Program-made: the position numbers and the translations under genes | Notes under the pieces: model-generated | What the model saw: only the letters and a program-made list of their open reading frames with translations | Told to the model about the DNA's origin: nothing | The model's database searches: none | Assembly: GCA_903813345.2 (NCBI GenBank) | Contig: CAIIXF020000006.1 | Span: forward strand, 9,412,989 to 9,476,988 | Direction of reading: 5' to 3' | From: Owenia fusiformis | Taxonomy: Eukaryota; Annelida; Polychaeta; Sabellida; Oweniidae | Length of the DNA: 64,000 nucleotides | Shown here: positions 2,448 through 58,500 of the stretch, piece after piece | How positions within the stretch are numbered: position 1 is the stretch's first letter | How the letters are laid out: every line of letters begins with the position of its first letter

Positions 2448-3512
2448 ATAATTGAATATCTATTTACACCTACAATTATTTGAAAATGAAATTATAGATG
2501 GATATGCATTTATAATGTATTGTAAACAACTTTACAATATTGTGATTATTGAATTTTGCAACTTCTTATTGAAAATTTTTGGAGAGAACACTAAATATTA
2601 TGATATATATAATATATATTATATATAAAATATATATAAATAAGATATCTGTAATAGTCAGATAATGGTTATAATTGATCTGAAGCATTCTGCATGATAG
2701 AATCAATCTAAATATATTCATATTTAGCCACAATATTGATAGAAAATGTTCAGTAATTAAAAGAGAGCGGCACATTTTCTAAATGTCCTATTTATTGTTT
2801 CATAGCGCACAGTCTATTTCTAAACTAGTGAAGACGAAGCTATCTTTTAAGAAGTGAAAACGAACAAATGCAAAAGGTAATTTATTATCTCCCTTAAAGT
2901 ATGATAACTCATAGAGTACAGGTATAATATGTTCTGTTTTCTGAATAGATAGAATAGTACCATGCTTTCGATAGTAATATTCCAATGGGAGTTTTTCATT
3001 TCATTATATTATTTGTTAGCTGCAAAAACAACTGTGCAAAATGATATTTGATTGATCATCTCATTTGTCTTTGTCTACAGATGGAATATTGTAGGTCCCG
3101 TGGGTCTGTTCATAACATAAGGTTCATATAAAATCATCCCTTTGATTGACCTGAACAATGAGTTACACAAACTAATAAGTTATTGGATCAAATCTAAATG
3201 GACTTGGAGGATTTATCGACAACATACTTTGTGATTGGTTCTTATGATGTGACATCATAGCTTATGAATATTCAGAGGTTGAATCAAGTAGTGCTAAGGA
3301 GTCACTCTTTATTATTATGGTGTTGAAATTTTGTTTCTTGCAATAAATGAATATTCAGGAATAGGAAGATTAGTTTCTATATAATGTTGATAATTGTCTT
3401 TTAGGATGTTCTGTAATTCTCATTTTTGGCATACATGTTGAGCCTTTAAAGGGACTCATACAATTAGCTACGTTGACCAAAGTGTTTACATTTTCGGATT
3501 AGAAGGGTTTAT
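2448..3512. other. Non-coding, AT-rich
   Basis: Contains an AT-rich simple repeat (about 2600-2643, alternating ta runs) and no supported gene. Short open frames here have no recognisable motif. The sequence tttaaagggactcatacaat near 3449 resembles the start of many TTAA-type DNA transposons, but I could not find a matching opposite terminus. Confidence 0.4.
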
Positions 3513-16031: not shown

Positions 16032-19000
16032 GTGAGTAGATTTTAATTATATTTAATTGATATATATCAGATACTGCTGTATTCAGCATAGAAACAACAA
16101 TCCATATCCATTTGAAAATATAAGAATTATTTTTTAAGGACTTTGTAGAAAAGCTATTAATAGTCACTTGGAAATTTACAGAATCATAGAATTTGGTAGT
16201 CTCATGAAATAAACTAAGTTAGGTCATTGTTTTATTATGATTTGGCAGTTCAAAATTCTAGGCATTTTGCAAGGAATATTTGGGAGGACATTACAAATTG
16301 TTGAATTTTATTTTTATTTATTGACTCACATAGTGAATCACCCACTCGCCAGTCCATCTGTCTGTCATAAATTTTGAAAAATTATCATTTTTCTGAACTA
16401 ATGAACTAATTTTTATCGCAATTTCAAAAAGTGCTACATTAACCATTTTAGCCCATCGAATGGTGTCATTTTCTTTCACTACCTCCAATCTATATTGGCA
16501 ACTCAGACTAAATACATTGGCTCACTATACAAGTTGGATCTCATAATTTACAGCTATGTATTTGTCAATGTGGCTTACTCACTGTGACTTGTTAATACCT
16601 CACAAACAGCAAATAATCAGATAAATCATTTCTTCAATTTAGAGTAGGATTACACTGAGCTCCTCAACCTTGAAGCATCTCTAGTATTACTGCATCAGTT
16701 GAGAATTGAATTGCAGCTAATTTTGAATCTCAAATACCATCCTGTTGAGAACTTGAAAATCATCATATTTGGAAAATCATCATACTTAGCATTTATAGAC
16801 ATTTCTTAGTTACTGAGAATGGAATCATTAAATCATAACTGTTATTGTGTCATTCAGTCTTAAGATTCATATATGGATTACAGTAAAACCTTTAAAATAG
16901 AACACTCCAAAGCTTTATTATACATCGTTTGATGATGTCCTCGTGGTGGTGTCTGTTGTCATGGTATTGAAGTTGTCTATGATGATGCTGTCTATTGTCA
17001 GGGTGTTGTCAGGGTGTTGTCTATGGTCATGGTGTAATGCTATTATCATGATGTTTCCTGTTGTAATGATATTGTCTATTACCAGGGTGTTGTCTATTCT
17101 ACTGGTGCTGTCTTTTTCCAAGGTGTCGCCTATTGTGATGGTGTCATGTATAATCATGATGTTGTCTATTGTTGTGGTGTTGTCTATTGTCATGGTGTCA
17201 AATATACAATCATGATTTTGTCTATTGTCATGGTGTTGTTTTTTTATTATCATGGCACTGTCTCTTGTCATGGTATTTTATAGGTTCACAATGTTGTTCA
17301 TTGCCATCATTCATAGAAGTTTACAGCGCAGAAGCCAGTTTTATCTAGACAAGCTGCTATCACATTTTGCTATAAAAGTATTGTTCATGATCACCCTGGG
17401 ACAGATGAGATTTTCAACATGGCTTCAAGCAGATATTTATGAGCTCTTAACTCCCAATTCTCGGTTATATTGTCGTAATCAGCAGTGATTTATGATGAAC
17501 TTTGATTTTCATTGTTTTTTCAATTTTGGTATCGCTGAAAATAAATGTTGTATATAATATATGTGTAACATAAACAAGCTTGTTATATTATAAATGTGAC
17601 ATGTCAGTTTATATGTATATTTGTTAGAAAGTCATAAAAAAGGTGTATTGGTAAACTATTCACATAAAAGACTTGGTCCATTACTAATGGCAAACACTGA
17701 ATAGCAAGGGATCTTAATAAATTATGAAATGTATCATAAAGTATTCTGTGATATGTTTTACAGGGTGAGCCAAAAAAATGTAACCCAAACAAATGTTAAT
17801 AACTCCGTCTTCCAGCATGGATTTGAACTCAAATTTTGCACAATAAAACATTGTTCAATGCTCCAAATGCAGAAAATCACCCAATGTGAATCTCCAAACT
17901 TTTATTTTTGGGTCCATTTCAAAGATATTGTCCGCATTCTAGATGCATGGGCATAGTGAGAGGAGGTTTGTGGACTCCATGTGAACTCCCCATTCTAAAT
18001 ACAAAACAAACACCCGGCCGGTAATTTTGTGAAAGATCAACAAACCGAAGGCCAGAAAAGAACCCCACTCTCAGAAAGATGACTATTTTCTACACTAGCT
18101 ATTTGATGAGGGTGCATATTGTATTCTGTGATTTGAGTGGTTTGTTGAAACTGTTTCTGTCTTGCAAACCTGCCCATCCTCTCTCTTCGCCTTGAACCCC
18201 CCTCTCGTTAAAAACAGAACCCCCAGGCAGGGGAAAAATTGAACCCCTTTATAAATCATGGCTGCTCCCTTGAGGTAGCATCAGAGTATTGAAACATAGA
18301 TAAGAAGGATGATTAGAGCCATTACACATGATATCTGTGAGCATCTAGTCACCTGGTGTTATTTAATTAGCCTCCAGAGATGAGACCGGCATTTTGAGGA
18401 TTTTTGTAAAATAACCATAAAATCGTGGCCATTGAGATAGACCAAAGAAACTTGATAGAATGAAAAAAACATTGAACAAGATTCAATTGTGCCAAATATG
18501 ATTTTAAACTCATACTGGATGACTGAGTTATTCACATTTGTTTGGGTTACATTATTTTGGCTCACCTTGTATCAAAGCTTGAAATAGCAGGTTTCTAATA
18601 GATCTCAGGATTTAGTTTATTTTAAAGAATTAGATATTGCATTTCTTTCAAGGAGAAAACATTGTAGGTTTTGCTCTAGATGTTTAGATTATTTTTATTA
18701 TCTAACCTACCTTACTTCTTTTTTAATCATCATTAACTGTTAAATAGTTATTAAACAGCCTCGATGTGTGATATTACACTCTAAATGTTAATAATAAATT
18801 TCATTTTTCCCACTTATTTAATTTTCATAAAATAGAACTCTATACTTATCTTTAATCCACCTACTTTCCAGACATATACCGTATTCTCTGTAATTAGCGC
18901 CCAGGGCGTTTAGAAAATTGAAAATACATTATTTAGACCATTCTAATAAGCGCCCATGTATGAAAGAAATCAGAAATCCCGAGGAATTTCATGTATGGCA

Positions 19001-22000
19001 ATTTTTCTTGACAAGAATGCATTTTCTTCAACATATTTTTATAATAATATGACAAGTGCTGTTATTGGAGAGAATACGGTAAAGATCGCTTAGACAATAT
19101 TGACAGTGGTTGAAGACCCGTCTATGTCTAATTTATTTCCGGCACGCCCACTTTGTCATTATCGCCGATTACCTTCAATATTTCCACTAGAGACTGCTGG
19201 ATATCGATCTAAAGTTATACATTATTTCTAATTTGATGAGAGATCATCATTATTCGTGCAAAAGTCGTGTAAAAGTCGAGAAACATTAAAAAGAAACCAG
19301 AAAGTTCACGACCTTGACATGCGCAGAACATCTGCGCAGTAGCTTTTGAAATTTCTGAATGCCGATAAAGAACAATTCCTTCATTCATTATGGACTATTT
19401 GGAGACAATATTAGCATGGTATGGTGTGGGAAGCACCCATCGATAGATATGTATCGAGAGGATGCATAGAATTACAAAACGCGTCGTGTTTACAGCAGTT
19501 TTAGGGTAAGTACTCTATTATCGCCCGCTCCTGGATTTTGAGAAATATTTTTTTCCTGATATATTCTTCAATTCTTGTTGATTCCTCGATGTTTCTTGAA
19601 CTTTGTGAAGCGGGTGGGCGCTTATTAGAGAGTGGGCGGTAATTACAGAGAATACGGTACTTCAGATAAATTGATCATTTTATAGTTATTATTATAAATT
19701 ACTATATTTATGCTTATCCTGGAGTCATTGTACTTCTCTATATGGCTCAGATTACACACATCTAATATATTTAAATCAAGATATCATTTTGCATATTTAT
19801 ATAAATGTAAATGGATCCACTCGCAGCTGCAGGATGAAAGCTTTATGTCAAATTAAATTTGCCCAATTAAGAATAGGTATTTAATTTGGACTTGGATTTT
19901 ACTTTGTACCTATGTACTTGAAAACGTATTTGCACCAAGTCCAGTTACAAGATTTTGAATTTTTGTTTGAAATTACCTTGTACCTACTTGCAAATGAATT
20001 TACCCCAGTTAAACCAAACCATACAAATATTTTGGTTGATTACACTTTCATTACAAAGATCTTCAACCATTAAAGTAACTAGATGTTACTGCCCCTTGAA
20101 AGAAATTTGAACAGTTTGTCAGAAGTTCACTTGAGACATGTGAAGATAGCATTTGTTCTTATCGCCATTACGAAATTACATATAATCAGAATTACTGAGA
20201 ATTACTAAGATTATATCTAGAAGTATGGCTTGTATTATGTTATATAAAGATTCAAGTGCCTAATATAGCTCAGACTTTTCTATCTTCTCTCGACTGATGC
20301 TAGATACATGCCAGCGCCAAAACAGTCTTACATAATAATTATGAAGAATTATAACGGAAGCTCTTATTTCTATAAAACATTACAGTATAGAGAACTAATG
20401 GCTGCTCAAAAGTACCTTATATTCATTCTTGATTTCAGAAATGCTGAAAATGCATACTTGCATTTTAAATGCTTTGTGGTCATCATGTTGACCAGAAGTT
20501 GTTTTGCAGAGAGATCCTTCCCATAGAATTTAGTCCCCCTTATACGAATCTTGATTTATCAAAAGAACCCTGTATATTTTTACATTCCATGTTTTGCAGA
20601 GAGAACCTAGCCATAGTACGTAGCCTTGGGGATAGGGCAGCTCAAGGGAGGGCATGTGGTAACCTTGGCAACACACACTATCTCATTGGTAACTTCAACC
20701 AGGCACGAATTTGTCATGAAGAGGTGAGTCTCTATTTTTCTTAAGCAAGGTATCAAATGACCCTTGTCTTCAATTAAAGTATTATTGGCATTAAATTCTG
20801 ATCTGACTAAAAATGTGTTATTCTAGTATTAAAATCTGCCATGTAACATGATCATACTTTCGTAACCATCTGAATAACTTAATTGAGGTGTCATTTTGTA
20901 GGCCCAATATAAAAGCTTACATAAAACAGTCTTCTCTGTTAAATAACTCATTCAGAAATTGAAATTGAAATATATCTGCTATGTATGTCTTACAGAGGTT
21001 GTCCATTGCAAAGGAATTTGGAGATAAATCAGCAGAACGAAGGGCCTACAGTAATCTTGCTAATGCCCACATATTCTTGGGAGAGTTTGAAATTGCAGCT
21101 GAACATTACAAGTAAGATTATATATATATACATATATATGTACATGCCAATATCATTTGTAAGACATTTTTCCATAGCTTTTGATATGGCACAACATATT
21201 ATGAAAAATGTTTTTACTTGAACACATTTCTAGGAAATATTAATTTTTGAATTTAAATGGTGTCAAATTCATGAATATAATTTAACTTTTCAATGTCTTC
21301 CAACCTACTTCCTGGCTACATGCACATCAATTACTCTATTCTGTATATTTCTCTAGGAAAACTCTCCAAATTGCGATACAGCTTGGTGACCGTGCTTTAG
21401 AAGCCCAAGCATGTTACAGCCTTGGCAACACATACACTCTCCTGAGAGACTACCCAAAGGTAAAATATATTGCACTTTGAATAAGGCAAAATCAGATCCA
21501 TAGGGGTGACAAAGTTACAAGCAATATATACAATTGGCCTACCAATCTATTCCTTACAATCTCAAATGCAATATCTCCAAAAAGATTCACGATATTGTAA
21601 AAATTGGTTTATGGATTCAAAGCGCAAAAATGGGGGAAAAATGTTTAAATTCTCCCAAATAATAAGAATGGTAACCATTCTTATAAAAGAAAAATACATT
21701 ATTGTAAAAATCTTTAGTTTTCCTGAAATAAAGTGTGCACTTTGGGGATTTTTAGAAAATAGACATGACAATAAATGACATGAGCCGGAAAAATTCTAAA
21801 ATTGAAACAATTTTTTGTTTGCCTTCCTGCTAGATCTGATTCTCTCTTTAAACAATTATAGATAAAAGGTTAAAATATAATAGATTTTACTTTCCCTGTA
21901 AATCATTTCATCTTTCCATTTTAGGCAATAGAGTATCATTTACGGCATCTCCGTATTGCCCAGGATCTCCGGGACCGTGTAGGGGAGGGGAGGGCATGCT

Positions 22001-25000
22001 GGAGCCTTGGAAATGCTCAAACTGCGCTAGGAAACCACGAGAAGGCCTTACAGTATGCCAACAAACATCTTGAGATCTCTAAAGAGGTAATTATCTTGTT
22101 TACACTGAATCCCATTGACATAATTTTGCAGATTCTGGCAAGATCCTAAAAATCTCCAATGTAGATTTTATGTGCTTATTTGGAAATTTGAATGTTACAT
22201 TGTAGTCTTGCATTAACAAGACTACTTGCATCCCCCACTACTTACATCCAATCAATGATATCTTTAATGTCTGTTTTTATTAGATGGAAATTAGGGTAGA
22301 GTAAATAGTAGATTTTATCTTGTGACAAATACATGTTCATGAATATTTTGATTGTTGGGGTTTGCTACTCCTTGGAGTTGCAGTTGGTCGAATGTATGTT
22401 TGGTGAAAGAAATATCTCTAATTTAAAAAAGTAGGTATAGTTGAGTTCTTGTACAAGGCTGTAATGTACATGTTCATGTTATTAATGGCCCTAGTGGGAA
22501 AGATAAAATTGACAAAGCTAAAGGCTTTTAGCAAAGGTTATGTGGGTGTATAAAATTAGGCAATAAAATTGCAATCCCTTTTGCCTAATTGATTGTATAA
22601 ATTGGAAAGTTCTAAGGTCTTAAAACACAAAAACAAAACCATATTAAAAAGGGTCCACGTAAGAGCCAGAGTCACTGGGAGCCTGGTTGCAGTTTGCACA
22701 CTTTGTATTGAAAATCAACTGATTAAAACTGATAAACCAATAACCATTTGAAGTAAGTTACCAGGTGATGACATTTTCTTGTAATGATAATGCATTGTTT
22801 CCTTATAAACTTCCTCCCATCCCAATACTTTATATGTTCAGGACGGCCACTCCATCATTTTTAAAATGGAATAGACCCTATAAGAAAATGTTTTGTTTAT
22901 AGATCGGAGATGCCACTGGCCAGGCTACGGCCCAGATGAACCTTGCTGACCTAAAGACAGTATTAGGTATAAACTCAAGTGCCAATATCTCAGATGCCAG
23001 TTTTAGCAGGTAAATAATCATCAATTAGATAATGCGTTTATTTATAATTAATTTAATTTATGATTTAATGTTTATCGAAAAGATTATTAACATTCCCATG
23101 ATAAGGAAATACACTTGTTAAATTGCATGGTTGGATAATTTGACTGAGTCTTAAGTATGAGCAGGTCTTCAGCAAGAGTGAATAGCTCAGTAACTAATCA
23201 GCTTATAGCGTACGTGCAGTAAAGCCATACGCTCTAATCATCCAGCTTTGTTTAATGAAGGACCTACTGTAATATATTCCAGTCATCTTGACCTCCTTCG
23301 GGAAGATATTGATGATTAATTAATTCCATCACTTTAAAGACTGTTTACACTCTGAGTAAGTGATGTCAATCAGGGTAATTAGAGATCTCTGTAGCCTGAT
23401 TTTTACTACATGCAAAAAATCATGTTTGCGTGACGTTGTGTTCAATCAAATATTTATCAGATATTGGACAAGAAATATGATAACATTAATATGGTGATTT
23501 TTTGAACGTCTCAAGAATCTGGGAAAATAATTTAATATAACATATTAGGCATATTTATTACATTTTTTTCATTTAGAGTATAGTTATGGCCGTGAGAGTC
23601 GTACATGTAAAATTATTAATATAAAATTAATATAAATAAATATTGAGCCAATTAACACAAAACACAATACCTTGGAAAATAATGGCTAATTTAAGTTAAT
23701 TAGCTACAAGAGTTTACAATTAGACATAACTGTTAATTAGCTCAATTGGATATATTATAATACCATCTCCAACTCATCTTCTTGGGTGAAAATAAATCTC
23801 CAACTGGTGGTGTAAGCTGGGGAAGGAGGTGAGGGAAAAGAATCGAAATGTATAACTTACATTGATGTTAATGGATTTTGTACGCACCTAGGGAGAAACC
23901 CTACAACTACAATCCTATAGATATCTCGTCTGAAGTCTCATCTCGTTCTCTCGAGATCTGAAGCTTGATGTTTCGTTCAGTGTAACTTACCAGAAACATT
24001 TACCTGGGATAACCGGGGAATGGTCTTCTCAGGGCTTGTTCATACCTAAACCTTAACCGACTCTCACATTGCCATAAATGAAATTATTGTCAATAATTTG
24101 AATATATCGCATTGATGCACAGCAAGTAATTAATAATGTTTAGAATTGTATATCACTAAAAGTAATATTTACTCTTAGAGTGATGATTGATTTTGAATGA
24201 TGATAAGAAATATATATATATATTCTGCTTTGTGTTTAGTATTCCAATGGTCATATTCTGCTTTGTGTTTAGTATTTCAATGATTATATTCTGCCTTGTG
24301 TTTAGTATTTCAATGATTATATTCTACTTTGAGCTTAGTATTCTAATGGTCATATGCTACTTTGTGTTTAGTATTCCAATGGTCATATTCTGCTTTGGGT
24401 TTAGTATTTCACTGATTATATTCTGCTCTATGTTCAGCATTTCAATGATTGTATTCTGCTTTGTGTTTAGTATTCCAATTATCATGTTCTGCTTTGTGTT
24501 TAGTATTTCAATGATTGTATTCTGCTTTGTGTTTAGTATTCCAATTACCATGTTCTGCTTTGTGTTTAGTATTTCAATGATTGTATTCTGCTTTGTGTTT
24601 AGTATTCCAATTATCATGTTCTGCTTTGTGTTTAGTATTTCAATGATTATATTCTGCTTTGTGTTTAGTATTCACGTGGTCATATTCTGCTTTGTGTTTA
24701 GTATTTCAATGGTCATATTCTGCTTTGTGTTTAGTATTCCAATGATCATATTCTGCTTTATGATTAGTATTTCACTGATTATATTCTGCTCTATGTTTAG
24801 TTTTTCAATGATTATATTCTGCTTTGTGTTTAGTATTCCAATGATCATATTCTGCTTTGTGTATAGTATTCTGATGGTCATATTCTTCTTTGTGTTTAGT
24901 ATTCCAATGATCATATTCTGCTTTGTGATTAGTATTTCACTGATTATATTCTGCTCTATGTTTAGTATTCCATTTGTCATATTCTGCTTTGTGTTTAGTA

Positions 25001-28000
25001 TTCCAATTATCATGTTCTGCTTTGTGTTTAGTATTTCAATGATTATATTCTGCTTTGTGTTTAGTATTCACGTGGTCATATTCTGCTTTGTGTTTAGTAT
25101 TTCAATGGTCATATTCTGCTTTGTGTTAAGTATTTCAATGATTATATTCTGCTTTGTCTTTAGTATTCCAATTGTCATATTCTGCTTTGTGTTTAGTATT
25201 CCAATGGATGGAGAAGAGAAGGAGAATAAATCAAGGCGACGCAGCATGGAAAACCTTGAACTTGTTCCTATTAGGACCCCTGATAAGGTCAGTGTTGTAA
25301 TATTAATATTTTTGTACCTTTGTTCCCTTGACACACAGAAAGAGTGGGAGTCCATTGGGAGAATGTATATAAGGGCATATATGATATATTATTAAAGAGG
25401 TCCCAAAGTATTAGGGTGTGTGGTTTGTTACAACTCATTCAGATTATGATATGATTCAGATATGATACATTTATGTAATATGATATTATATGATTTAGAT
25501 GATAATTTTTGTTTTCCAATCAAAATGCTGCTTCTGTTTTTTTGTTTTTGTTATGAAAAGCTTTTGCAATTATTTCCTGAAAAAATTAAATGACATTATT
25601 TTGTGAAGTGTATTTTATGTACTGCAGGCCAAGGAGCTAGCTCAGGGAGGAGCCCGACCAAAGGTGCAGAAAGCAGCTACAATTGCAAGTAATTTAGATG
25701 AGCGAATGAAAACTAACACAGCAAAGCAACCAACTCGGCCAAGTACAGCATCTCTTGCTAGGGAGAGTAAAGCACCAAGAGTAAGCTTAAAATAATTATC
25801 TCAAGAAACTACAGTACATCTATTTAAATGCCCAAAATATCTCCAACAATATTTAGTATGTGCAATCTTTGTTATTTGATCAAAATATCCTCTTACATAA
25901 ACAAGAGATTATTGCATAAATTCAATATGGATAATCTTCCAAATATTTTGCCAAATTAAGGACCTATTCAGATTGCGTTAAACTGATATGCAAAATATTT
26001 GGTTTAAATGATTAAAAGCATTATTACATAAGTCACTGTAATGTTTTATGAAAATAATCTCAATTGGCAAAATATTGAATTCAGTTGAATAGATTTTTAA
26101 ATCTCTTTTAAGCACATAATACTGCACTGTTTAATGTTTGCAAACTTTCATGGTTAATCTCTTTCCTTTGTTTGAATTAAGATTGAACTCTTTGAATTTG
26201 AATTTTCCATATTAACTGTAAAATTCATTTACTGTAGATGGAATTTAAAACCAGTTGAACATTTTTCAATTTTATTATTTCTGCTTGACAAAATGAAAAA
26301 ATGAAATAAAAAGAGGTGCATCAGAACACAAACTGAAATAGAACAGGGATTAAGAAATTAGATGTCTCATTAAACTCAATTCGGAGCAACCAATAATGCG
26401 AAATGAAAATGTTTAATTAATTTTAGAAAATTTCACCTGAAATGACAGATGATGACAATTTCTTTGACCTCTTGAGCAAATTTCAAGGACGAAGGATGGA
26501 CGAACAGAGATGTGCATTTGATGGACCTATCCCAGGTGATGAGGATGGTTTCCCACCTGATCCATCTAACAAAGGTAACTCAAGAAAATAGGTTAAGTCA
26601 GATGTTTTGAGGCCTTAGTTAAAAGAAACTATTTTTGTGAAATGACTTGCAACCCTCAAAATATAAAACAGATAAAAGCAGTTAGGCTATACACTGGGCA
26701 TTTTGTTTTGCATTATATCGCACTGAGTAAAAAATTCATTTTAGATAATGTGACTGGGGCTTGGCGAATAAGCTTTGAGTTTAAAACACAGCCCCAAAGG
26801 AAACATGGGTAGTTGCAAATGAAGTTGACTATGTAAATGAATGGAGAATTTCCTCAATGTTTTTCATATTGAGTCTGAATGTATTCATTTATCAAAAATG
26901 TACTAGAAAATAACTTCTCTATTTCAATTCTCATGAAGAAGTGAGGATATCTCTAGATAAAAGCTCAACTCATGCTATTGGAATATTTTTAGATTTATCG
27001 AAAGCCTTCGATACAGTAAATCATGAAATTCTTCTAAAAAAACTTGAAAATTTTGGAATTCGCAATGTCGCAAAAAATTGGTTTGAAAGCTATTTATCTG
27101 ATAGGAAAATCATTACTTCTTTTAACAACACTCTATCTGAAGAAAATATTATCACTTGTGGTGTACCTCAAGGGTCTGTTTTAGGCCCCATCTTATTCAT
27201 TCTCTATATTAATGATTTATATAGGGTTTCAAATATGCTTAAATTTACTATTTTCGCAGATGATACAAATATCTTATGTTCAAACAAAGACCTTCATGAT
27301 CTATATAGAAATGTAAATCTAGAAATGGAAAAGACATTAGAATGGTTCAAATCAAATAAACTTTCTTTGAATATAGACAAGACAAATTATATGCTATTTA
27401 CAAGATCAAAGTTAAATATTGATGAAAATCAAGATTTTAATATAAAAATAGGGGGTAATATTCTTGAAAGAGTAATGCATACAAATTTTCTGGGAGTAAC
27501 AATTGATTGTAAATTAAAATGGAATGAGCACATAAATAAGGTTATACATAAAATATCTAAAATTATTGGTATTCTGGGAAAGATTAAATATAAATTGAAT
27601 ACAAAAACCATGATTACCATTTATAATTCACTTATATTATCACAATTGAACTATTGCAACATCATATGGGGTAATGCATGTAAAACCTTTTTGAATAAAT
27701 TGCTTTTGTTACAAAAACGTGCAGTGAGAATAATCACAAATTCTGACTTTTTAGCACATAGCCCACCTCTTTTTAAACAACTCAATTTTCTAGATATTTT
27801 TGACATACATAAGCTTGAAGTTGCAAAATTTATTTATCAATACACAACAAAACCCGATGGCTTTCCTTTTGACATATTTGAAAATTATTTTACTCCAAAT
27901 TTGATATTTCATGAACATGAGACAAGATTCCAAAATTGCCTTCACATGAAAAAATTTAGAACAATTATAAGTCAAAACTCAATAAAATATTCAGGTGCTC

Positions 28001-29690
28001 AGCTTTGGAATAATCTGCCAACTTCTTTGAAAACATTACCTTCCATTAACTGTTTTAAAAAGAATTTTAAAATTCATATGACATCAACCTATTCTGAACT
28101 GAATTACTGACAAACATATATGTAGATTTTATATATTGTTATCAATTTTATTCTCATTTAACTGAGTAAATATTTTTAAATTGTTCTTTTTTCTCATTTC
28201 CATTTGACTCAGGTTAATATTTAAATGTTTTCACGCTGATACACTTATTAAAAGTGTCTAGTGTTATTATGTTTTTGATTTTAATTTTAGAGAATAAATA
28301 TTTTTAATAAAAAAAAAAAAAAAAAAAAAAGATGTAGCTAATGTGCATAAGTCAAAACATGTATATTATAAAAAGCAAATCAATTTCATGAATGATACAC
28401 TCCCCCTCTAAGTTTAGGTCCCCTAAACAAATTTCTGGCCTATTGTGGTTTAAGCAACAAAATAAAGTTTCAGATATAAACAGGCTTTAAAATCCAATGT
28501 CTATTTGTCAGACTTATGGAAGGGGTGTAAATCCTAATATTTTCAAAAAAGAGCAAATATGCCTAGTCTTCTCAAGTATAATTCATTAGTATTTTTGTCT
28601 TCCAGCATTATCCCAAGGTGACCATGATTTCCTAGATATGGTCGCAGGAATCCAAGGGTCACGTATGAATGAACAGAGAACAACGCTAGAAAATCTACCC
28701 GGATTGCACAATAGCAAGGATGTGATTGGTCAGTTATTAACCAATAAGGGTGAAGCTCCAGATGATGCATTCTTTGAAATGTTAATGAGATGTCAGGTTT
28801 GTAGTGTTTATATTTTAGGTGTTTTTATTATTATTAATTCTGTACAGTTGAAATTAAGTTACAATTAAGCCATTTGATTTAAGTTCTTCGTGTTAACAAT
28901 ATCCTGTTATTTCAAGAAATCTTAATATATTAGGCCTAAAAGCTAAGGACATTGACTGGTCAACCAAATTCCTGTGGGATTTTCTCAGGATCTGGTAGCT
29001 GGCTCTTGGAATTCTGTTTGCTCCACTAGAAGCACTTTGAATACTAAGATACATGTATTTTCTTTATGTATTAATTAATATTCACTGGAGCTAAGTGAAT
29101 TCTCTTGTTTTATCATGTATAAGGTTAAACTCTAAAATGTTTACTAATCCTACTGCATCTATAACAAGTCGAAATCATGTCATTGTTTCGTTTTTTTGTT
29201 TGAAGTTTTCCTTGCTTTCAAGATTTGTATTCCATTGTTCAGAAGGGAGACAAAATATTTTAAACCTAGAAGCAGAATTAAAAAATGTTCAACCTTTTTA
29301 TCTGATAGCAACCTTAGCAGCAGGTAAATCTCCTCTTTGCCTAAACTCCCTCAATACATGGGGTTGGTTTTGTTGAGAATTGAACCAGTTGTTATCCCCT
29401 TTCACCAAAAATACATTCCAATCATGTTGAGGACTGAAGCACTCATTGCCTTTTCTGAATAAAAAGCCTTAAATAAAAAGTCATATATTTTTATTTTCAT
29501 CTTGCAGGGTTCGAGAATCGAAGAGCAGCGTAGTGCGCTCCCAACTCAATCTGCACCCACAGTCCCCGATGAAGACTTTTTTAGCCTCATAACTAGACTA
29601 CAGGGCAATCGCCTTGATAAACAAAGAACAGATTTACCACCTAAAAGAGGTTCAAGTAAAAAGAAGAAGAAGGATAAGGAAAAGAAATAG
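15889..29690 (+). CDS. GPSM2/LGN/Pins orthologue, last 11 exons
   Basis: Exons 15889-16031, 20600-20723, 20996-21111, 21357-21459, 21925-22086, 22903-23009, 25197-25287, 25628-25780, 26427-26574, 28606-28796 and 29508-29690 join in one frame of 1521 nt: 506 residues plus TAG. Residues 1-about 245 are TPR repeats (YNLGNVYHAKGK, CGNLGNTHYLIGNF, YSNLANAHIFLGEF, CYSLGNTYTLL, CWSLGNAQTALGNH). The linker holds RRRSMENLEL (265-274), in vertebrate LGN a phosphosite segment that binds Dlg-type GK domains. Four GoLoco motifs follow at about 341-361, 388-407, 435-454 and 467-486, each ending xxQR. GoLoco motifs bind G-alpha-i-GDP; the TPR domain binds NuMA/Mud or Inscuteable; the protein orients the spindle at the cortex. 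The protein ends in a lysine-rich tail. The N-terminal TPRs are not in the window; the exon at 15889 begins in phase 0 at the equivalent of VGEARALYN. Nearest family alternative is paralogue GPSM1; most invertebrates have one gene. Confidence 0.97.
16032..17760. other. Intron, first part
   Basis: Intron between GPSM2 exons a and b (16032-20599). This part contains the minisatellite at 16930-17280 and otherwise nothing recognised. Confidence 0.7.
16930..17280. repeat. Imperfect gtgttgtctattgtcatg minisatellite
   Basis: Tandem units of roughly 18-27 bp built from ggtgttgtctattgtcatg with length changes mostly in threes, so both strands stay open for about 90-117 codons. The frames encode monotonous MVLSIV- or TIDNIM-type peptides and are not considered genes. 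Confidence 0.85.
17761..18569. mobile_element. TA-flanked MITE (CAGGGTGAGCC ends)
   Basis: Begins cagggtgagccaaaaaaatg and ends with the near complement (ttttggctcaccttg), with TA outside (17759-17760, 18570-18571). Arms match for about 130-200 bp, including cccaaacaaatg / catttgtttggg. The 809-bp element has no coding region. Confidence 0.88.
18879..19657. mobile_element. TA-flanked MITE (CCGTATTCTCTGTAATTA ends)
   Basis: Starts ccgtattctctgtaattagc and ends with its near complement (ggcggtaattacagagaata then cgg). TA outside both ends (18877-18878, 19658-19659). A third inverted terminus-like copy (gagagaatacggta) lies at 19068-19080, suggesting a nested or rearranged unit. Non-coding, 779 bp. 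Confidence 0.88.
19660..20500. other. Intron, last part before exon b
   Basis: AT-rich, no recognised element. Confidence 0.5.
20501..20533 (+). promoter_or_regulatory. Duplicated 3' splice site 90 bp upstream of exon b
   Basis: gttttgcagagaga and the following 19 bases match the true exon b start (20591-20623) at about 27 of 33 positions, exactly 90 bp upstream. Using the AG at 20508-20509 keeps the phase, and the 90 bases contain no stop, so 30 residues would be added in frame between the GAA codon and exon b. It could be a used alternative acceptor or a relic. Confidence 0.5.
20600..20723 (+). CDS. GPSM2 exon b (TPR)
   Basis: Encodes ENLAIVRSLGDRAAQGRACG and continues NLGNTHYLIGNFNQAR to CHEE. 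The first base completes GAA from exon a. Acceptor ttttgcag at 20592-20599, donor gtgagt at 20724. Confidence 0.97.
20996..21111 (+). CDS. GPSM2 exon c (TPR)
   Basis: Encodes RLSIAKEFGDKSAERRAYSN then LANAHIFLGEFEIAAEHYK. Acceptor tcttacag, donor gtaaga. 116 nt, ends two bases into an AAG codon. Confidence 0.97.
21357..21459 (+). CDS. GPSM2 exon d (TPR)
   Basis: Encodes KTLQIAIQLGDRALEAQACY then SLGNTYTLLRDYPK. Acceptor ttctctag, donor gtaaaa. Closely parallel to KTLLLARQLKDRAVEAQ of vertebrate LGN. Confidence 0.97.
21460..21924. other. GPSM2 intron
   Basis: Contains a 21-bp palindrome (taagaatggt-a-accattctta) near 21662-21682; otherwise nothing recognised. The open frames on both strands around 21506-21778 are chance. 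Confidence 0.6.
21925..22086 (+). CDS. GPSM2 exon e (TPR)
   Basis: 54 codons in phase 0: AIEYHLRHLRIAQDLRDRVG, then EGRACWSLGNAQTALGNHEK, then ALQYANKHLEISKE. Acceptor ccattttag, donor gtaatt. Confidence 0.97.
22087..22902. other. GPSM2 intron
   Basis: Non-coding; no recognised element. A fragment ggtgatgacattttcttg near 22769 weakly resembles the dispersed repeat at 10.5-14 kb. Confidence 0.6.
22903..23009 (+). CDS. GPSM2 exon f (last TPR helix)
   Basis: Encodes IGDATGQATAQMNLADLKTV then LGINSSANISDASFS. Matches the end of the TPR domain (human form LNLSDLQMVLG). Ends two bases into an AGT codon; donor gtaaat. Confidence 0.96.
23010..24221. other. GPSM2 intron upstream of minisatellite
   Basis: AT-rich, no recognised element except an (AT)n run (about 24210-24221) directly before the 33-bp array. 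Confidence 0.6.
24222..25204 (+). repeat. 33-bp minisatellite made of splice-acceptor copies
   Basis: 30 tandem units of 33 bp; a typical unit contains tctgctttgtgtttag, then tattccaatg, then a variable gatcat-like end. Every unit keeps the AG before T, and the last AG (25195-25196) is the working 3' splice site of exon g. The array is therefore an expansion of the intron-exon border. Because 33 is divisible by three and no unit has a stop, the exon frame is open through the whole array (hydrophobic 11-residue repeats such as IFCFVFSIPMI). Longer blocks are also duplicated: units 12-15 resemble 24-27, and 8-13 are three 66-bp dimers. Confidence 0.95.
25197..25287 (+). CDS. GPSM2 exon g (linker, RRRSMENLEL)
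   Basis: The first base T completes AGT with exon f. Encodes SIPMDGEEKENKSRRRSMEN then LELVPIRTPDK. RRRSMENLEL is the conserved linker phosphosite segment of LGN/Pins. The first three full codons (Ile-Pro-Met) lie inside the last minisatellite unit. Donor gtcagt. Confidence 0.95.
25288..25627. other. GPSM2 intron
   Basis: Non-coding, no element recognised. Confidence 0.7.
25628..25780 (+). CDS. GPSM2 exon h (linker)
   Basis: 51 codons, phase 0: begins AKELAQGGARPKVQKAATIA and ends SLARESKAPR. Low-complexity, basic, Ser/Thr-rich linker as expected between the TPR and GoLoco regions. Acceptor actgcag, donor gtaagc. Assigned by phase fit and position, since this linker is poorly conserved. Confidence 0.9.
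25781..26426. other. GPSM2 intron
   Basis: Non-coding, no element recognised. Confidence 0.7.
26427..26574 (+). CDS. GPSM2 exon i (GoLoco 1)
   Basis: Encodes KISPEMTDD then DNFFDLLSKFQGRRMDEQRC, a canonical GoLoco motif ending in the DEQR arginine that contacts nucleotide on G-alpha. An acidic proline-rich spacer follows. Donor gtaact at 26575. Confidence 0.97.
26920..28330 (+). mobile_element. 5'-truncated LINE in GPSM2 intron
   Basis: Contains the C-terminal two thirds of a reverse transcriptase ORF (26941-28110), a short 3' UTR and a 22-nt A run (28309-28330) just after AATAAATA. The endonuclease and RT N-terminus are absent, as in typical 5'-truncated insertions. The 5' limit is approximate; I could not find a convincing target-site duplication. 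Confidence 0.85.
26941..28110 (+). CDS. Non-LTR retrotransposon reverse transcriptase (partial)
   Basis: 389 codons with no internal stop. Motifs in order: FLDLSKAFDTVNH (RT motif A), GVPQGSVLGPILF (motif B), FADDTNIL (catalytic DD, motif C), LSLNIDKTNYMLF (motif D), FLGVTID (motif E), then thumb/C-terminal regions typical of Jockey/CR1/RTE-like LINEs (YNSLILSQLNYCNIIWG, LQKRAVRII). The frame is open upstream to about 26920 but has no natural start; the printed start is not the protein start. The intact frame implies recent insertion. It serves the element, not GPSM2. Confidence 0.92.
   Translation: MRISLDKSSTHAIGIFLDLSKAFDTVNHEILLKKLENFGIRNVAKNWFESYLSDRKIITSFNNTLSEENIITCGVPQGSVLGPILFILYINDLYRVSNMLKFTIFADDTNILCSNKDLHDLYRNVNLEMEKTLEWFKSNKLSLNIDKTNYMLFTRSKLNIDENQDFNIKIGGNILERVMHTNFLGVTIDCKLKWNEHINKVIHKISKIIGILGKIKYKLNTKTMITIYNSLILSQLNYCNIIWGNACKTFLNKLLLLQKRAVRIITNSDFLAHSPPLFKQLNFLDIFDIHKLEVAKFIYQYTTKPDGFPFDIFENYFTPNLIFHEHETRFQNCLHMKKFRTIISQNSIKYSGAQLWNNLPTSLKTLPSINCFKKNFKIHMTSTYSELNY
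28606..28796 (+). CDS. GPSM2 exon j (GoLoco 2 and first half of 3)
   Basis: Begins with two bases completing GCA. GoLoco 2 is DHDFLDMVAGIQGSRMNEQR. It is followed by ENLPGL (human SNLPGL) and GQLLTN, then DDAFFEMLMRCQ, the first half of GoLoco 3, split exactly before GSR. Donor gtttgt. Confidence 0.97.
28797..29507. other. GPSM2 intron
   Basis: Last intron. No element recognised; the open frame at 29095-29376 has no family motif. Confidence 0.65.
29508..29690 (+). CDS. GPSM2 exon k (GoLoco 3 end, GoLoco 4, stop)
   Basis: GSRIEEQRSAL completes GoLoco 3; PTVPDEDFFSLITRLQGNRL followed by DKQR is GoLoco 4 (human PTVPDEDFFSLILRSQGKRM). It ends in a Lys-rich tail and TAG at 29688-29690. GoLoco 4 has K in place of the usual D/E before QR. 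Confidence 0.97.
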   Translation, partial: GSRIEEQRSALPTQSAPTVPDEDFFSLITRLQGNRLDKQRTDLPPKRGSSKKKKKDKEKK

Positions 29691-45302: not shown

Positions 45303-46436
45303 ATGGCTGGCCATCTGGACCAATGTATCGTCATACTTTTAACGCCGTAAAATCTACTTTTAACGCCGTAAAAACGATTTTATACGCCGTAAAGAATTAC
45401 TTTTACGCCGTTAAAAACGATTTTGTACGCCGTTAAAATTCATTTTGAACGGCGTCAAAAATAATTTTTAACACCGTAAAAACGATTGTATACGCCGTAA
45501 AGAATTACTTTTTACGCCGTTAAAAATTATTTTTACGCCGTTAAAAATCACTTTTTATTTTTACGCGGTTAAAAATTATTTTTTACGCCGTTAAAAATTA
45601 TTTTTTTACGCCGTTAAAAAATTTTTTTTACGCCGTTAAAAATTACTTTTTACGCCGTTAGAAATTACTTTTTACGCCGTTAAAAATTATTTTTTACGCC
45701 GTTAAAAATTATTTTTTACGCCGTTAAAATTTATTTTTTACGCCGTTAAAAATTACTTTTTACGCCGTTAAAAATTATTTTTTACGCCGTCAAAACTGAT
45801 TTTTTACGCCTTTCGAAATTGCGAACGTACAGAACATTGTTAATCATTTGCGAAAAAATATTTAAACAATGAAAACTCGATGTATATCAAATTCCCAGTT
45901 GTTAAATGATAGTTGTAGTCTTCTATACAACCAAATGCGTCTGGCAAGTAAAAATTCCAATATAAATGATAAATGTGACATGTACAGTAACAGAAAAATA
46001 GGGTTTTGGATTTATATCAATCAGTCGGTAAGTTGAACATACACGTTCGTTTGTTCAATGAATACCAGATTGTAACGCTGGTTTTAATTGGCTGCCAGCT
46101 ATAATTTCTAACGGCGTAAAAATCAATTTTGACGCCGTACAAAATAATTTTTAACGGCGTAAAAATCGGTTTTGACGGCGTACAAAATCATTTTTAACGG
46201 CGTAAAAAGTAATTCTTTACGGCGTATAAAATCGTTTTTACGGCGTAAAAATTATTTTTGACGCCGTTCAAAATGACTTTTAACGCGTACATAATTATTT
46301 TTGACGCCGTAAATAATCAATTTTGAAGGCGTACAAAATCGGTTTTAACGGCGTTAAAAGTAATTCTTTACGGCGTATTAAATCGTTTTTACGGCGTTAA
46401 AAGTATGACGATACATTGGTCCAGATGGCCAGCCAT
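45303..46436. mobile_element. hAT-like non-autonomous element with ACGCCGT arrays
   Basis: Starts atggctggccatctggacca and ends with the complement. The 8-bp ATGCCTCT is duplicated on both sides (45295-45302, 46437-46444), the length used by hAT transposons. Inside each end is a dense array of ACGCCGT on the left (about 20 copies over 45334-45810) and ACGGCGT on the right (about 12 over 46109-46400), spaced about 20-22 bp and embedded in A/T runs. Subterminal repeats of this kind bind transposase in hAT elements. No coding capacity. Confidence 0.88.
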
Positions 46437-52538: not shown

Positions 52539-55500
52539 AAGTCTTTGCCAGGTTCTTTCGCAAATGGATTTATTGAAATCACAGTATTTATAGTTCATTA
52601 ATTGAAGCCCGTGGTTAGTCGAGTCGATCAAATGAAAAAAGTATAATCTGGCAAAACAGGCCACGTAGCTAGTACTCTAATTTTGTATCAGACGTGAATA
52701 AGAAGCCTTTGCAAGGTTCTTACGCAAATAAGCTTAGATTGATTTAGACAGTCGAGTCAAATGAAAGAAGAAGTATGAAACTGGCAAAACAGGCCACGTA
52801 ACTGGTACTCTAATTTTGTATCAGACGTGAATAAGAAGCCTATGCCAGGTTCTTACGCAAATAAATTTATTAAATTTTGTCAAGTCAAATAAAAAGAGAA
52901 GTATGAAACTGGCTAAAACAGGCCACGTAACTAGTACTCTTATTTTATATCAGACGTGAATAAGAAGCATATGGCAGCTTATTACGCAAATAGATTTATT
53001 TAGGCAGTCGAATGAAATGAAGAAAGAAGAATGATACTGGCAAAACAGGCCACGTAACTGGTACTCTAATTTTGTATCAGACGTGAATAAGAAGCCCGTG
53101 CCATGTTCTTACGAAAATAGATTTATTTAAGTTAGTCGAGTCTTCTTTATTTAAGCATTGAAGTCAAATATGAAAAAGTAATATGAAACTGGCAAAACAG
53201 GCCACGTAACTGGTACTCTAATTTTGCATCAATCGTGAATAAGAAGCCTATGCCAGGTTCTTACGAAAATGGATTTATTTAAGCATTGAAGTCAAATGAA
53301 AAAAGTAATATGAAACTGGCAAAACAGGCCACTTAACTGGTACTCTAATTTTGTATCAGACGTGAATAAGAAGCCTAAGCTAGGTTCTTACGAAAATAGA
53401 GCTATTTAAGTTAGTCGAGTCAAATGAAAAAAAAAGTAAGTATGAAACTGGCAAAACAGGCCACATAACTGGTACTCTAATTTTGAATCAGACGTGAATA
53501 AGAAGCCTATGCCAGGTTCTTACAAAAATAGATTTATTTAAGTAAGAAATTGGCAAAACAGGCCACGCAACTGGTACTCTAATTTTGTATCAGATGTGAA
53601 TAAGAAGCCCGTGCCAGGTTCTTACAAAAAAAGATTCATTTAAGTTAGTCGAGTCAAATGAAAAGTAAGTATGAAACTGGCAAAACAGTACTGGTACTGG
53701 TACTCTAATTTTGTATCAGACGTGAATAAGAAGCCTATGCCAGGTTCTTACGAAAATAGAGCTATTTAAGTTAGTCGAGTCAAATGAAAAAAGAAGTAAG
53801 TATGAAACTGGCAAAACAGGCCACGTAACTGATACTCTAATTTTGTATCAGACGTGAATAAGAAGCCTATGCCAAGTTCTTACGAAAATAGAGCTATTTA
53901 AGTTAGTCGAGTCAAATGAAAAAAGAAGTAAGTATGAAACTTGCAAAACAGGCCACGTAACTGATACTCTAATTTTGTATTAGACGTGAATAAGAAGCCT
54001 ATGTTAGGTTCTTACGAAAATAGAGCTATTTAAGTTAGTCGAGTCAAATGAAAAAAGAAGTAAGTATGAAACTGGCAAAACAGGCCACGTAACTGATACT
54101 CTAATTTTGTATCAGACTTGAATAAGAAGCCTATGCCAAGTTCTTACGAAAATAGAGCTATTTAAGTTAGTCGAGTCAAATGAAAAAAGAAGTAAGTATG
54201 AAACTGGCAAAACAGGCCACGTAACTGATACTCTAATTTTGTATCAGACGTGAATAAGAAGCCTATGCCAGGTTCTTACAAAAATAGATTTATTTAAGTT
54301 AGTCGAGTCAAATGAAAACGGAAGTATGAAACTAGCAGAACAGGCCAAGCAACTGGTGCTCTAATTTTTTTTGTATCAGACGTGAATAAGAAGCCTATGC
54401 CAGGTTCTTACGAAAACACATTTATTTAAGCATTGAAGTCAAATGAAAAAAGTAATATGAAACTGGCAAAACAGGCCACGTAACTGGTACTCTAATTTTG
54501 TATCAGACGTGAATAAGAAGCCTATGCCAGGTTCTTATGAAAATGATTTATTTAAGCATTGAAGTCAAATGAAAAAAGTAATATGAAACTGGCAAAACAG
54601 GCCACGTAACTGGTACTCTAATTTTGTATCAGACGTGAATAAGAAGCCTATGCCAGGTTCTTACAAAAATAGAGCTATTTAAGTTAGTCGAGTCAAATGG
54701 AAACTGGTGCTCTAATTTTTTTTGTATCAGACGTGAATAAGAAGCCTATGCCAGGTTCTTACGAAAACACATTTATTTAAGCATTGAAGTCAAATGAAAA
54801 AAGTAATATGAAACTGGCAAAACAGGCCACGTAACTGGTACTCTAATTTTGTATCAGACGTGAATAAGAAGCCTATGCCAGGTTCTTATGAAAATGATTT
54901 ATTTAAGCATTGAAGTCAAATGAAAAGAGTAATATGAAACTGGCAAAACAGGCCACGTAACTGGTACTCTAATTTTGTATCAGACGTGAATAAGAAGCCT
55001 ATGCCAGGTTCTTACAAAAATAGAGCTATTTAAGTTAGTCGAGTCAAATGGAAAAAAAAGTAAGTATGAATCTGGCAAAACAGGCCACGTAACTGGTACT
55101 CTAATTTTGTATCAGACGTGAATAAGAAGCCTATGCCAGGTTCTTACAAAAATAGAGCTATTTAAGTTAGTCGAGTCAAATGAAAAAAGAAGTAAGTATG
55201 AAACTGGCAAAACAGGCCACGTAACTGATACTCTAATTTTGTATCAGACCTGAATAAGAAGCCTATGCCAAGTTGTTACGAAAATAGAGCTATTTAAGTT
55301 AGTCGAGTCAAATGAAAAAAGAATTAAGTATGAAACTGGCAAAACAGGCCACGTAACTGATACTCTAATTTTGTATCAGACGTGAATAAGAAGCCTATGC
55401 CAGGTTCTTACAAAAATAGATTTATTTAAGTTAGTCGAGTCAAATGAAAGAAAGAAGTATGAAACTGGCAAAACAGGCCACGTAACTGATACTCTAATTT

Positions 55501-58500
55501 TGTATCAGACGTGAATAAGAAGCCTATGCCAAGTTCTTACGAAAATAGAGCTATTTAAGTTAGTCGAGTCAAATGAAAGAAAGAAGTAAGTATGCAACTG
55601 GCAAAACAGGCCACGTAACTGGTACTACAGGTTTGCATCAGACGTGAATAAGAAGCCTATGTCAGCTTCTTACGCAAAAAGATTTATTTAAGTTAGTCGA
55701 GTCAAATGAAAGAAAGAAGTATGAAACTGGCAAAACAGGCCACGTAACTGGTACTCTAATTTTGTATCAGACGTGAATAAGAAGTCTATGCCAGGTTCTT
55801 ACGAAAATAGAGCTATTTAAGTTAGTCGAGTCAAATGAAAAAGAAGTAAGTATGCAACTGGCAAAACAGGCCACGTAACTGGTACTACAGGTTTGCATCA
55901 GACATGAATAAGAAGCCTATGTCAGCTTCTTACCCAAAAAGATTTATTAAAGTTAGTCGAGTCAAATGAAAGAAAGAAGTATGAAACTTGCAAAACAGGC
56001 CACGTAACTGGTACTCTAATTTTGTATCAGACGTGAATAAGAAGCCTATGCCAATTTCTTACGCAAATGGATTTATTTAAGTTTGTCAAGCCAAATGAAA
56101 ATGGAAGTATGAAACTAGCAAAACAGGCCACGCAACTGGTACTCTAATTTTGTATCAGACGTGAATAAGAAGCCCGTGCCAGGTTCTTACAAAAATAGAT
56201 TTATTTACGTTAGTCAAGTCAAATGAAAAAAGAAGTAAGTATGAAACTGGCAAAACAGGCCACGTAACTGGTACTCTAATTTTGTATCAGACGTGAATAA
56301 GAAGCCTTTGTCAGATTCTTACGAAAATATAGCTATTTAAGTTAGTCGAGTCAAATGAAAAAAGTAATATGAAACTGGCAAAACAGTCCACGTAACTGGT
56401 ACTCTAATTTTGTATCAGACGTGAATAAGAAGCCTATGCCAGGTTCTTACGAAAATAGAGCTATTTAAGTTAGTCGAGTCAAATGAAAAAAGAAGTAAGT
56501 ATGAAACTGGCAAAACAGGCCACTTAACTGGTATGCTAGTTTTGTATCAGACGTGAATAAGAAGCCTATGCCAGGTTCTTACAAAAACACATTTATTTAA
56601 GCATTGAAGTCAAATGAAAAAAGTAATATGAAACTAGCAAAACAGGCCACGTAACTGGTACTCTAATTTTGTATCAGACGTGAATAAGAAGCCTAGGCCA
56701 GGTTCTTACGAAAATGATTTATTTAAGCATTGAAGTCAAATGAAAAAAGTAATATGAAACTGGCAAAACAGACCACGTAACTGGTACTCTAATTTTGTAC
56801 CAGACGTGAATAAGAAGCCTATGCCAGGTTCTTACGAAAATAGAGCTATTTAAGTTAGTCAAGTCAAATGAAAAAAGAATTAAGTATGAAACTGGCAAAA
56901 CAGGCCACGTAACTGATACTCTAATTTTGTATCAGACGTGAATAAGAAGCCTATGCCAGGTTCTTACAAAAATAGATTTATTTAAGTTAGTCGAGTCAAA
57001 TGAAAGAAAGAAGTATGAAACTGGCAAAACAGGCCACGTAACTGATACTCTAATTTTGTATCAGACGTGAATAAGAAGCCTATGCCAAGTTCTTACAAAA
57101 ATAGAGCTATTTAAGTTAGTCGAGTCAAATGAAAGAAAGAAGTATGAAACTGGCAAAACAGACCATGTAACTGGTACTCTAATTTTGTATCAGACGTGAA
57201 TAAGAAGCCTATGCCAGGTTCTTTCGAAAACACATTTATTTAAGCATTGAAGTCAAATGAAAAAAGTAATATGAAACTGGCAAAACAGGCCACGTAACTG
57301 GTACTCTAATTTTGTATCAGACGTGAATAAGAAGCCTATGCCAGGTTCTTACGAAAATGATTTATTTAAGCATTGAAGTCAAATGAAAAAGTAATATGAA
57401 ACTGGCAAAACAGGCCACGTAACTGGTACTCTAATTTTGTATCAGACGTGAATAAGAAGCCTATGCCAGAGCCATTTAAGTTAGTCGAGTCAAATGAAAA
57501 AGAAGTAAGTATGCAACTGGCAAAACAGGCCACGTAACTGGTATTACAGGTTTGCATCAGACATAAATAAGAAGCCTATGTCAGCTTCTTACCCAAAAAG
57601 ATTTATTTAAGTTAGTCGAGTCAAATGAAAGAAAGAAGTATGAAACTTGCAAAACAGGCCACGTAACTGGTACTCTAATTTTGTATCAGACGTGAATAAG
57701 AAGCCTATGCCAATTTCTTACGCAAATGGATTTATTTAAGTTTGTCAAGCCAAATGAAAATGGAAGTATAAACTAGCAAAACAGGCCACGCAACTGGTAC
57801 TCTAATTTTGTATCAGACGTGAATAAGAATTCCGTGCCAGGTTCTTACAAAAATAGATTTATTTACGTTAGTCAAGTCAAATGAAAAAAGAAGTAAGTAT
57901 GAAACTGGCAAAACAGGCCACGTAACTGGTACTCTAATTTTGTATCAGACGTGAATAAGAAGCCTTTGTCAGATTCTTACGAAAATATAGCTATTTAAGT
58001 TAGTCGAGTCAAATGAAAAAAGTAATATGAAACTGGCAAAACAGGCCACGTAACTGGTACTCTAATTTTGTATCAGACGTGAATAAGAAGCCTATGCCAG
58101 GTTCTTACGAAAATAGAGCTATTTAAGTTAGTCGAGTCAAATGAAAAAAGAAGTAAGTATGAAACTGGCAAAACAGGCCACGTAACTGATACGCTAATTT
58201 TGTATCAGACGTGAATAAGAAGCCTTACCAAGTTCTTACGAAAATAGAGCTATTTAAGTTAGTCGAGTCAAATGAAAAAAGAAGTAAGTATGAAACTGGC
58301 AAAACAGGCCACGTAACTGATACTCTAATTTTGTATCAGACGTGAATAAGAAGCCTATGCCAGGTTCTTACGAAAATAGAGCTATTTAAGTTAGTCGAGA
58401 CGTGAATAAGAAGCCTATGCCAGGTTCTTACAAAAATAGATTTATTTAAGTTAGTCGAGTCAAATGAAAATGGAAGTATGAAACTAGCAGAACAGGCCAC

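Follow-up and report, generated by a model that had tools for sequence, protein, structure and literature searches.

Arrays whose tandem units run across an exon-intron boundary are known from amphioxus under the name of mirages, of which the paper by Canestro et al. (2002) is reportedly the original description. For two of the amphioxus genes concerned, Adh3 and globin, reverse transcription polymerase chain reaction suggests normal splicing, according to PMC3087553, and further cases, PGBD5 and TnC, appear in PMC3902484. In human, the variable number tandem repeat (VNTR) in intron 18 of ABCA7 is placed so that its first GT is the donor of the exon, and use of the donor in unit 2 leads to the retention of one unit (PMC5954066). 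Here we describe a minisatellite lying in a stretch of 64,000 nt (the window, to whose positions and (+) strand all coordinates of the array refer) and built from copies of the 3' splice site of a GPSM2 exon. Judging from the sequence, it is one of many tandem arrays built from exon-intron junctions in the same genome.

A minisatellite at a GPSM2 acceptor

Tandem Repeats Finder reported an array at 24220–25206 with a period of 33, 29.9 copies, 85% matches, 0% indels and a score of 1372, in agreement with an earlier, sequence-only reading of this DNA, which had described 30 open units of 33 bp. That reading had set the limits at 24222 and 25287: the start was retained, whereas 25287 is the end of the exon and the array itself ends at about 25206–25211. 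The array and its last unit are located as follows:

24222–25211, (+) strand: minisatellite of 30 x 33 bp, indel-free, in the register of the sequence-only reading; consensus ATTCTGCTTTGTGTTTAGTATTCCAATGATCAT
25179–25211, (+) strand: last unit, with the GPSM2 acceptor AG at 25195–25196 and the first 11–12 exon bases, which match the unit

Split at the AG boundary, the unit reads ATTCTGCTTTGTGTTTAG/TATTCCAATGATCAT, and the last unit continues into the GPSM2 exon as TTTAG/TATTCCAATGGATGGAGAAGAG. Thus, as had been proposed, the unit consists of tract, AG and first exon bases and the last one is the acceptor itself; with the AG at 25195–25196 and 11–12 exon bases in that unit, the repeats cross the exon-intron boundary. 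The splice signal is inside the units, AG being present at unit positions 17–18 in 30/30 of them, followed by T in 29 and by C in one (unit 7). No further AG occurs between successive unit AGs in 29/30 units, the tracts are 67–78% pyrimidine and, when scored with an approximate matrix, a branch-point-like site is found 21–26 nt 5' of the AG in 17/30 units, including the last. One unit therefore appears to be roughly one complete acceptor module, so that the last module would be intact at any tandem copy number. The units are not uniform (22/29 are distinct among units 1–29, with a mean pairwise identity of 0.86), four pairs spaced 12 units apart are identical to each other, and a DNA search of the one assembly found the locus in single copy.

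The reading frame behaves as the sequence-only reading had stated. The upstream exon closes with 2 nt of a codon (AG), completed to Ser by the T that follows the acceptor; the AG/T frame is open from 24187 to 25395, and in the array the two remaining sense frames contain 29 and 20 stops. Splicing at any upstream AG would keep the phase and lengthen the protein by n x 11 hydrophobic residues, 29/29 being in frame without a stop.

By homology, the host gene is GPSM2/LGN/Pins, as previously assigned, on the evidence of a TPR exon, of three GoLoco motifs and of the exon before the array, which matches GPSM2 residues 340–369 (PDB, E 7.6e-7). The exon after the array has no Pfam match of its own; it contains RRRSMENLEL, which we take to resemble LGN. 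The features of the gene are:

21925–22086, (+) strand: TPR exon of GPSM2; Pfam TPR_12 4.5e-8, PDB matches to PINS and GPSM2 chains
22903–23009, (+) strand: GPSM2 exon before the array; begins IGDATGQATAQMNLADLKTVLGINSS and ends ...TTTTAGCAG/GTAAAT, last bases AG, phase 2
23010–25196, (+) strand: intron, of which the final ~45% is the array
25197–25287, (+) strand: GPSM2 exon after the array; (AG)T ATT CCA ATG GAT ... RRRSMENLELVPIRTPDK, donor GT at 25288
26454–26519, (+) strand: GoLoco motif of GPSM2
28626–28688, (+) strand: GoLoco motif of GPSM2
29571–29636, (+) strand: GoLoco motif of GPSM2

An open reading frame (ORF) resembling the reverse transcriptase of a long interspersed nuclear element lies within GPSM2 at 26914–28110, in the interval from the first to the second GoLoco motif. 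Elsewhere in the window we observed a region of 18-bp repeats in which both strands have long open frames (16901–17283), 22-bp arrays with the core TTTTTACGCCGTTAAAAATT, whose adjoining blocks show both orientations (45337–46406), and a large satellite with units of about 127–132 bp (52622–64000), which continues past the window end.

Junction arrays elsewhere in the genome

In the 498 Mb of genome, a DNA search with the GPSM2 array gave one other similar array, which comprises 36 x 33 bp and runs up to the acceptor of an Hsp110-like exon (SSE1, E 2.7e-4; HSP70, 0.0062). The two consensus units have 21/33 bases in common, a score reached by 0.18% of random genomic 33-mers, and this similarity is near chance. 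At this locus (L002, C2:10272748–10276723) the acceptor array of 36 copies occupies one end of the intron and, by reading, a 2 x 122-bp duplication including an exon end with its donor occupies the other.

1370–2558 and 2873–3116 of the locus: features of the Hsp110-like locus L002

No upstream AG of the Hsp110 array passed the homology threshold; by reading, its units contain an in-frame TAA, AG is lost in 3/35 and its own acceptor is 3 nt off register. The Hsp110 array, used as query, retrieved a 31-bp array next to an SLC17-like exon (TIGR00894, E 1.9e-5), at whose acceptor it ends and whose first codons are included in its unit. Moreover, a UPRT-like exon (L024, C1:58372100–58372900, minus strand) is flanked by arrays on both sides: the acceptor array has 3 units with a period of 36, and the donor array has at least 7 units with a period of 43 and reaches the end of the examined stretch. 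Altogether, 15 further junctions, spread over several genes and including 5' as well as 3' boundaries, gave a protein-profile match, some of them weak (8 acceptors and 7 donors, with Muted, NIF, COesterase and DnaJ_C among the latter). Eight others were recognised by eye only (L011, L018, L019, L031, L044, L045, L052 and L067), with profile support in 0/8.

Most of these cases derive from pattern scans for three exact copies of a heptamer spaced 25–55 bp, compared with the reversed motif; the matches overlap inside arrays and include dispersed repeat families, and are not array counts. TTTCAGG gave 1139 matches vs 301 for the reversed motif, TTTTAGG 628 vs 308 and the donor-like AGGTAAG 1531 vs 530. 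TGTTTAG (909 vs 819) showed no excess and was rejected as a signature of acceptor arrays. By hand count of the matches listed, contig C1 holds at least 20 TTTCAGG arrays (to 61.1 Mb) and at least 4 GGACTTT arrays (62.2 Mb).

Arrays were picked among the matches listed, which covered contigs C1 to C4 at most. All the 20 TTTCAGG arrays so picked were retrieved; for TGTTTAG, 15 of 16 were retrieved, giving 16 loci, in addition to the Hsp110 array; for AGGTAAG, 12 of 17, leaving out four GGAGGAGGTAAGG family repeats and one array overlapping L033; and for GGACTTT, which served as comparison set, 17 of 23 as 20 regions, leaving out five near-identical family copies and C3:30572469. A single reading frame each was compared with Pfam for 19/20 TTTCAGG arrays (all except L015), for L029 and L031 of the TGTTTAG set, for 10/12 AGGTAAG arrays (all except L049 and L053) and, picked by eye, for L067, L069 and L072 of the GGACTTT set. 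The frames were chosen by two differing rules or by hand (L011, L014, L018, L019), and the classification was not blind.

Five of the 20 TTTCAGG arrays led into a Pfam-matched exon: a ligand-gated channel (1.3e-15), UPRTase (6.1e-7), 7tm_3 (2.1e-5), nSTAND3 (1e-4) and a weak Ank_2 (0.017), the last three below the Pfam gathering score. By reading only, three more led into an exon (L011, L018, L019), so that 15/20 were without a profile-supported exon and 12/20 without an exon by profile or reading. Among the donor arrays a profile match was obtained in 5/12, namely Muted (3.1e-15), COesterase (8e-13), NIF (2.3e-6), an alpha/beta-hydrolase model (0.0032) and a weak tetraspanin (0.016), and three more were assigned by reading (L044, L045, L052). 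L051 was rejected: a tRNA-synt_2d exon is present, but the array is by reading intronic, beyond the donor. Junction arrays were present among the 17 GGACTTT arrays as well: one at the donor of a DnaJ_C exon (5.2e-13), one at a Rab acceptor (Ras 1.2e-4; PDB Rab-22A 2.1e-8) and, judged by reading, one at an SLC5-like donor (L067). Because of these three, this set is not a clean negative control. In the TGTTTAG set, L031 is WD40-like by reading only. Weak matches to DUF5671, AveC_like and SF3A3 (Pfam) and to CrgA and a Cas3-extension model (NCBIfam) were left uncounted.

Two dispersed families were observed on C1 during these scans. One, perhaps part of a mobile element, consists of tandem TTTCAGGCAGGCATGTGAAGTTTGTAACATGCACCAG units at three loci (L008, L013, L022), with no exon match. 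The other, a purine-rich GGAGGAGGTAAGGAGG family, fits the donor-like heptamer and shows no evident exon; it occurs near 2960609, 9402179, 15584848, 17746920 and 27630098.

In the Rab, SLC17-like, ligand-gated channel, 7tm_3 and UPRT acceptor arrays, the units contain conserved exon codons of their own gene, and for this reason the exon must be the source of the unit there. In most such arrays, splicing at an upstream AG would change the frame or run into a stop: across ten acceptor arrays besides that of GPSM2, including four recognised by reading only, 43/139 upstream AGs are in frame and 5/139 are in frame without a stop; therefore, the last AG must dominate there.

To what extent arrays gather at junctions was estimated on a background of 134 kb, made up of 80 kb at preset positions (GC 34.5%) and 54 kb of the window, in which TTTCAGG occurs 23 times. 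The 10 downstream frames of at least 20 amino acids scanned there gave 1 Pfam exon (Pyridoxal_deC, 0.0087) and one more possible by eye. Exon-adjoining TTTCAGG was thus found in 8/20 arrays vs 2/23 background sites (P = 0.028), and in 5/20 vs 1/23 (P = 0.08) when profile matches only are considered; since the classification was not blind, the excess is suggestive, not decisive. The 80 kb contained 5 minisatellites (18–60 bp, at least 2.8 copies), about 60 per Mb; by reading, 0/5 span an exon border, and one (L079) is near a transporter-like ORF. If the number of exon borders is assumed to be a few hundred thousand, random placement at this density could by itself produce junction arrays in a number on the order of one thousand. 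A wider claim, that splice junctions are preferred birthplaces of minisatellites, above random, with hundreds to a few thousand exon borders (a rough extrapolation) bearing copies of their own splice site, outside cephalochordates and with GPSM2 as the extreme case, seems to us doubtful. If it were true, length-variable ladders of acceptors and donors would exist genome-wide, as a possible source of new introns, of displaced exon borders and of isoforms that differ between individuals.

Origin of the array and choice among its acceptors

We consider it probable that the GPSM2 array is a junction minisatellite of the mirage type, namely a local tandem duplication of a module of branch point, tract and AG, which is tolerated and leaves the exon-proximal copy usable. 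A segment with the branch-point region, the pyrimidine tract, the AG and the first 11–12 exon bases would have been duplicated in tandem, and slippage or unequal exchange would have expanded it to 30 units. Each unit being a whole 3' splice site, the duplication would spare splicing: through the exon-proximal copy, the preceding exon would still be joined to an unaltered one, and the remaining 29 copies would be part of the intron. The array would then be mostly neutral and free to vary in length, with at most some leaked isoforms carrying n x 11 extra hydrophobic residues. Most likely, it is neutral for the animal and the last acceptor is the one used, exon definition being the likely reason why this acceptor wins. 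That the array is local is indicated by the lack, in DNA searches that skipped very common words, of any genome copy of the unit family beyond a near-chance match.

Several observations weigh against this interpretation. The selection of the AG is described as 5'-to-3' scanning from the branch point (PMC10946897), so that the last AG could be used only with a branch point inside the last 33 nt. The match in the last unit is weak (score 2.6) and 13/30 units have only a poor best site, 10–11 nt from the AG, both by the approximate matrix. Scanning alone would favour the first AG past the branch point used, and the 30 acceptors are equal by sequence. Moreover, the retention of AG in 30/30 units (P = 0.10 by chance) is also what a ladder of acceptors in use would predict, and the GPSM2 array is the only examined one that is open throughout.

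It is unlikely, in our opinion, that the array is an aid to splicing, in which serial tracts and branch-point regions recruit U2AF/U2 cooperatively and boost a weak acceptor, only the last AG being used. The pyrimidine-rich tract of each unit would suit such a role, and acceptor use is affected by scanning and tract content, as reported in PMC10946897; however, donor-side arrays exist too, the copies would also compete besides recruiting, and the units give no sign of constraint beyond the AG.

The sequence-only reading had seen in the locus a ladder of potential in-frame acceptors, and a selected ladder, in which upstream AGs yield GPSM2 isoforms with n x 11 residues between the TPR domain and the linker, varying between individuals, also deserves consideration. 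The invariant AG and the 29/29 in-frame, open upstream AGs speak for it. The open frame, instead, did not hold up as a pointer to splicing use, because it is easily come by: only 1/99 single substitutions of the unit consensus creates a stop, the variants look neutral, and upstream AGs in the sister arrays are mostly not open (5/139, as above). In detail, of the 30 distinct substitutions in units 1–29, 6 are synonymous, 24 are non-synonymous and none creates a stop, compared with 17/81/1 possible, that is, the unconstrained ratio, and a coding constraint on the units is not apparent. A random 33-bp unit of local base composition has no stop in a chosen frame with P ~0.44, or 0.15 if a length divisible by three is also required, and one fully open array is about what chance would give among a dozen. 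The invariance of the AG is likewise weak evidence, and was discarded as proof of selection: 11/33 columns are invariant (AG and 9 others), and two specified columns would both be among these with P = 0.10. Finally, the added residues, (IFCFVFSIPMV)n, look membrane-like, and their abundant use in a cytosolic scaffold would be unlikely. Hence, we regard a selected ladder as quite improbable.

That an existing satellite or mobile repeat was inserted at the intron end, its last unit being recruited as acceptor, is very unlikely. The Hsp110 array does have the same period and 21/33 consensus bases in common, and dispersed families with tandem motifs appear in the pattern scans; but, given the frequency of such scores among random 33-mers, about one match is expected among some hundreds of 33-bp arrays, and the Rab, SLC17-like, UPRT and channel units hold conserved codons of their own gene, unlike an inserted repeat. 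In addition, the two DNA searches, in which very common words were skipped, gave as related copies beyond the locus only the Hsp110 array and one further array, itself at a junction: the GPSM2 and Hsp110 queries found each other and that array, and a dispersed family was therefore rejected. An assembly artefact, the real locus having one or few units, is hardly credible, since 22/29 units are distinct and many independent junction arrays exist, even if tandem arrays are hard to assemble and the identical pairs at 12-unit spacing could be read in that sense.

Comparison with described systems

In the junction arrays, nature itself confronts the spliceosome with a choice among many near-identical sites, with up to 30 acceptors at GPSM2 and both sides of the UPRT-like exon, and ordinary RNA sequencing could thus test the rules of scanning and exon definition. 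Such arrays may also provide material from which introns are gained and borders are moved. Tandem arrays reportedly gave rise to introns in human (Zhuo et al. 2007), and internal duplication reportedly creates introns (Gao and Lynch 2009). Both systems resemble ours in having tandem repeats with splice signals as the raw material of introns; they differ in that the GPSM2 intron is presumably old and its array sits on an existing border, rather than being a new intron.

Introners, too, link repeats with splice sites in a large number of genes (PMC9860276), but they are scattered, mutually related elements by which new introns are created, whereas the units of the junction arrays differ from gene to gene; the main text of that paper is without the word 'tandem'. 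Three candidate parallels were rejected on the available parts of their descriptions: the 33-bp VNTR of dog MCHR2 is not at a splice site, for the intron minisatellites of earthworm metallothionein junction-spanning units are not described, and the intronic minisatellites near multiply spliced exons of C. elegans (PMC4039745) are linked to splicing with no description of a unit spanning the splice site. Among the papers listed by literature searches, which covered few subscription papers and were judged by title and the opening of the abstract, none was found to treat junction minisatellites as a class across a genome or to report them from an invertebrate outside the cephalochordates.

The ABCA7 VNTR is, like the GPSM2 array, a short-unit array beginning at a splice site, with the site in each unit. 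According to PMC5954066, it lies on the donor side, has a 25-bp unit whose retention shifts the frame, and is polymorphic and associated with disease, whereas the GPSM2 array is on the acceptor side with a unit of 33 bp.

The amphioxus mirages are closer, as they share tandem units across the exon-intron boundary, those of Adh3 being 10–72 bp long. As the kind is described, many of the units, though not all, carry the splice signal, either boundary may be affected in several genes of a genome, and array length is unstable between alleles or tissues; the cases located are all from cephalochordates. The differences concern the number of copies, 30 in GPSM2 and 36 in Hsp110 vs 3–6 in BflGb6 (same sources), the units of GPSM2, which are in frame and stop-free, and the occurrence of arrays in many genes of one genome. 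The host is another organism, probably not Branchiostoma: a GC content of 34.5% in 80 kb speaks against that genus, and so does the lack of a GFP-family match, in a search whose positive control likewise gave no match; COX1 gave no match either. Arrays of this kind are already known, and it is their scale and, if confirmed, the taxon that would be the surprise: should the genome be non-cephalochordate, the mirage phenomenon would be wider than the located literature suggests.

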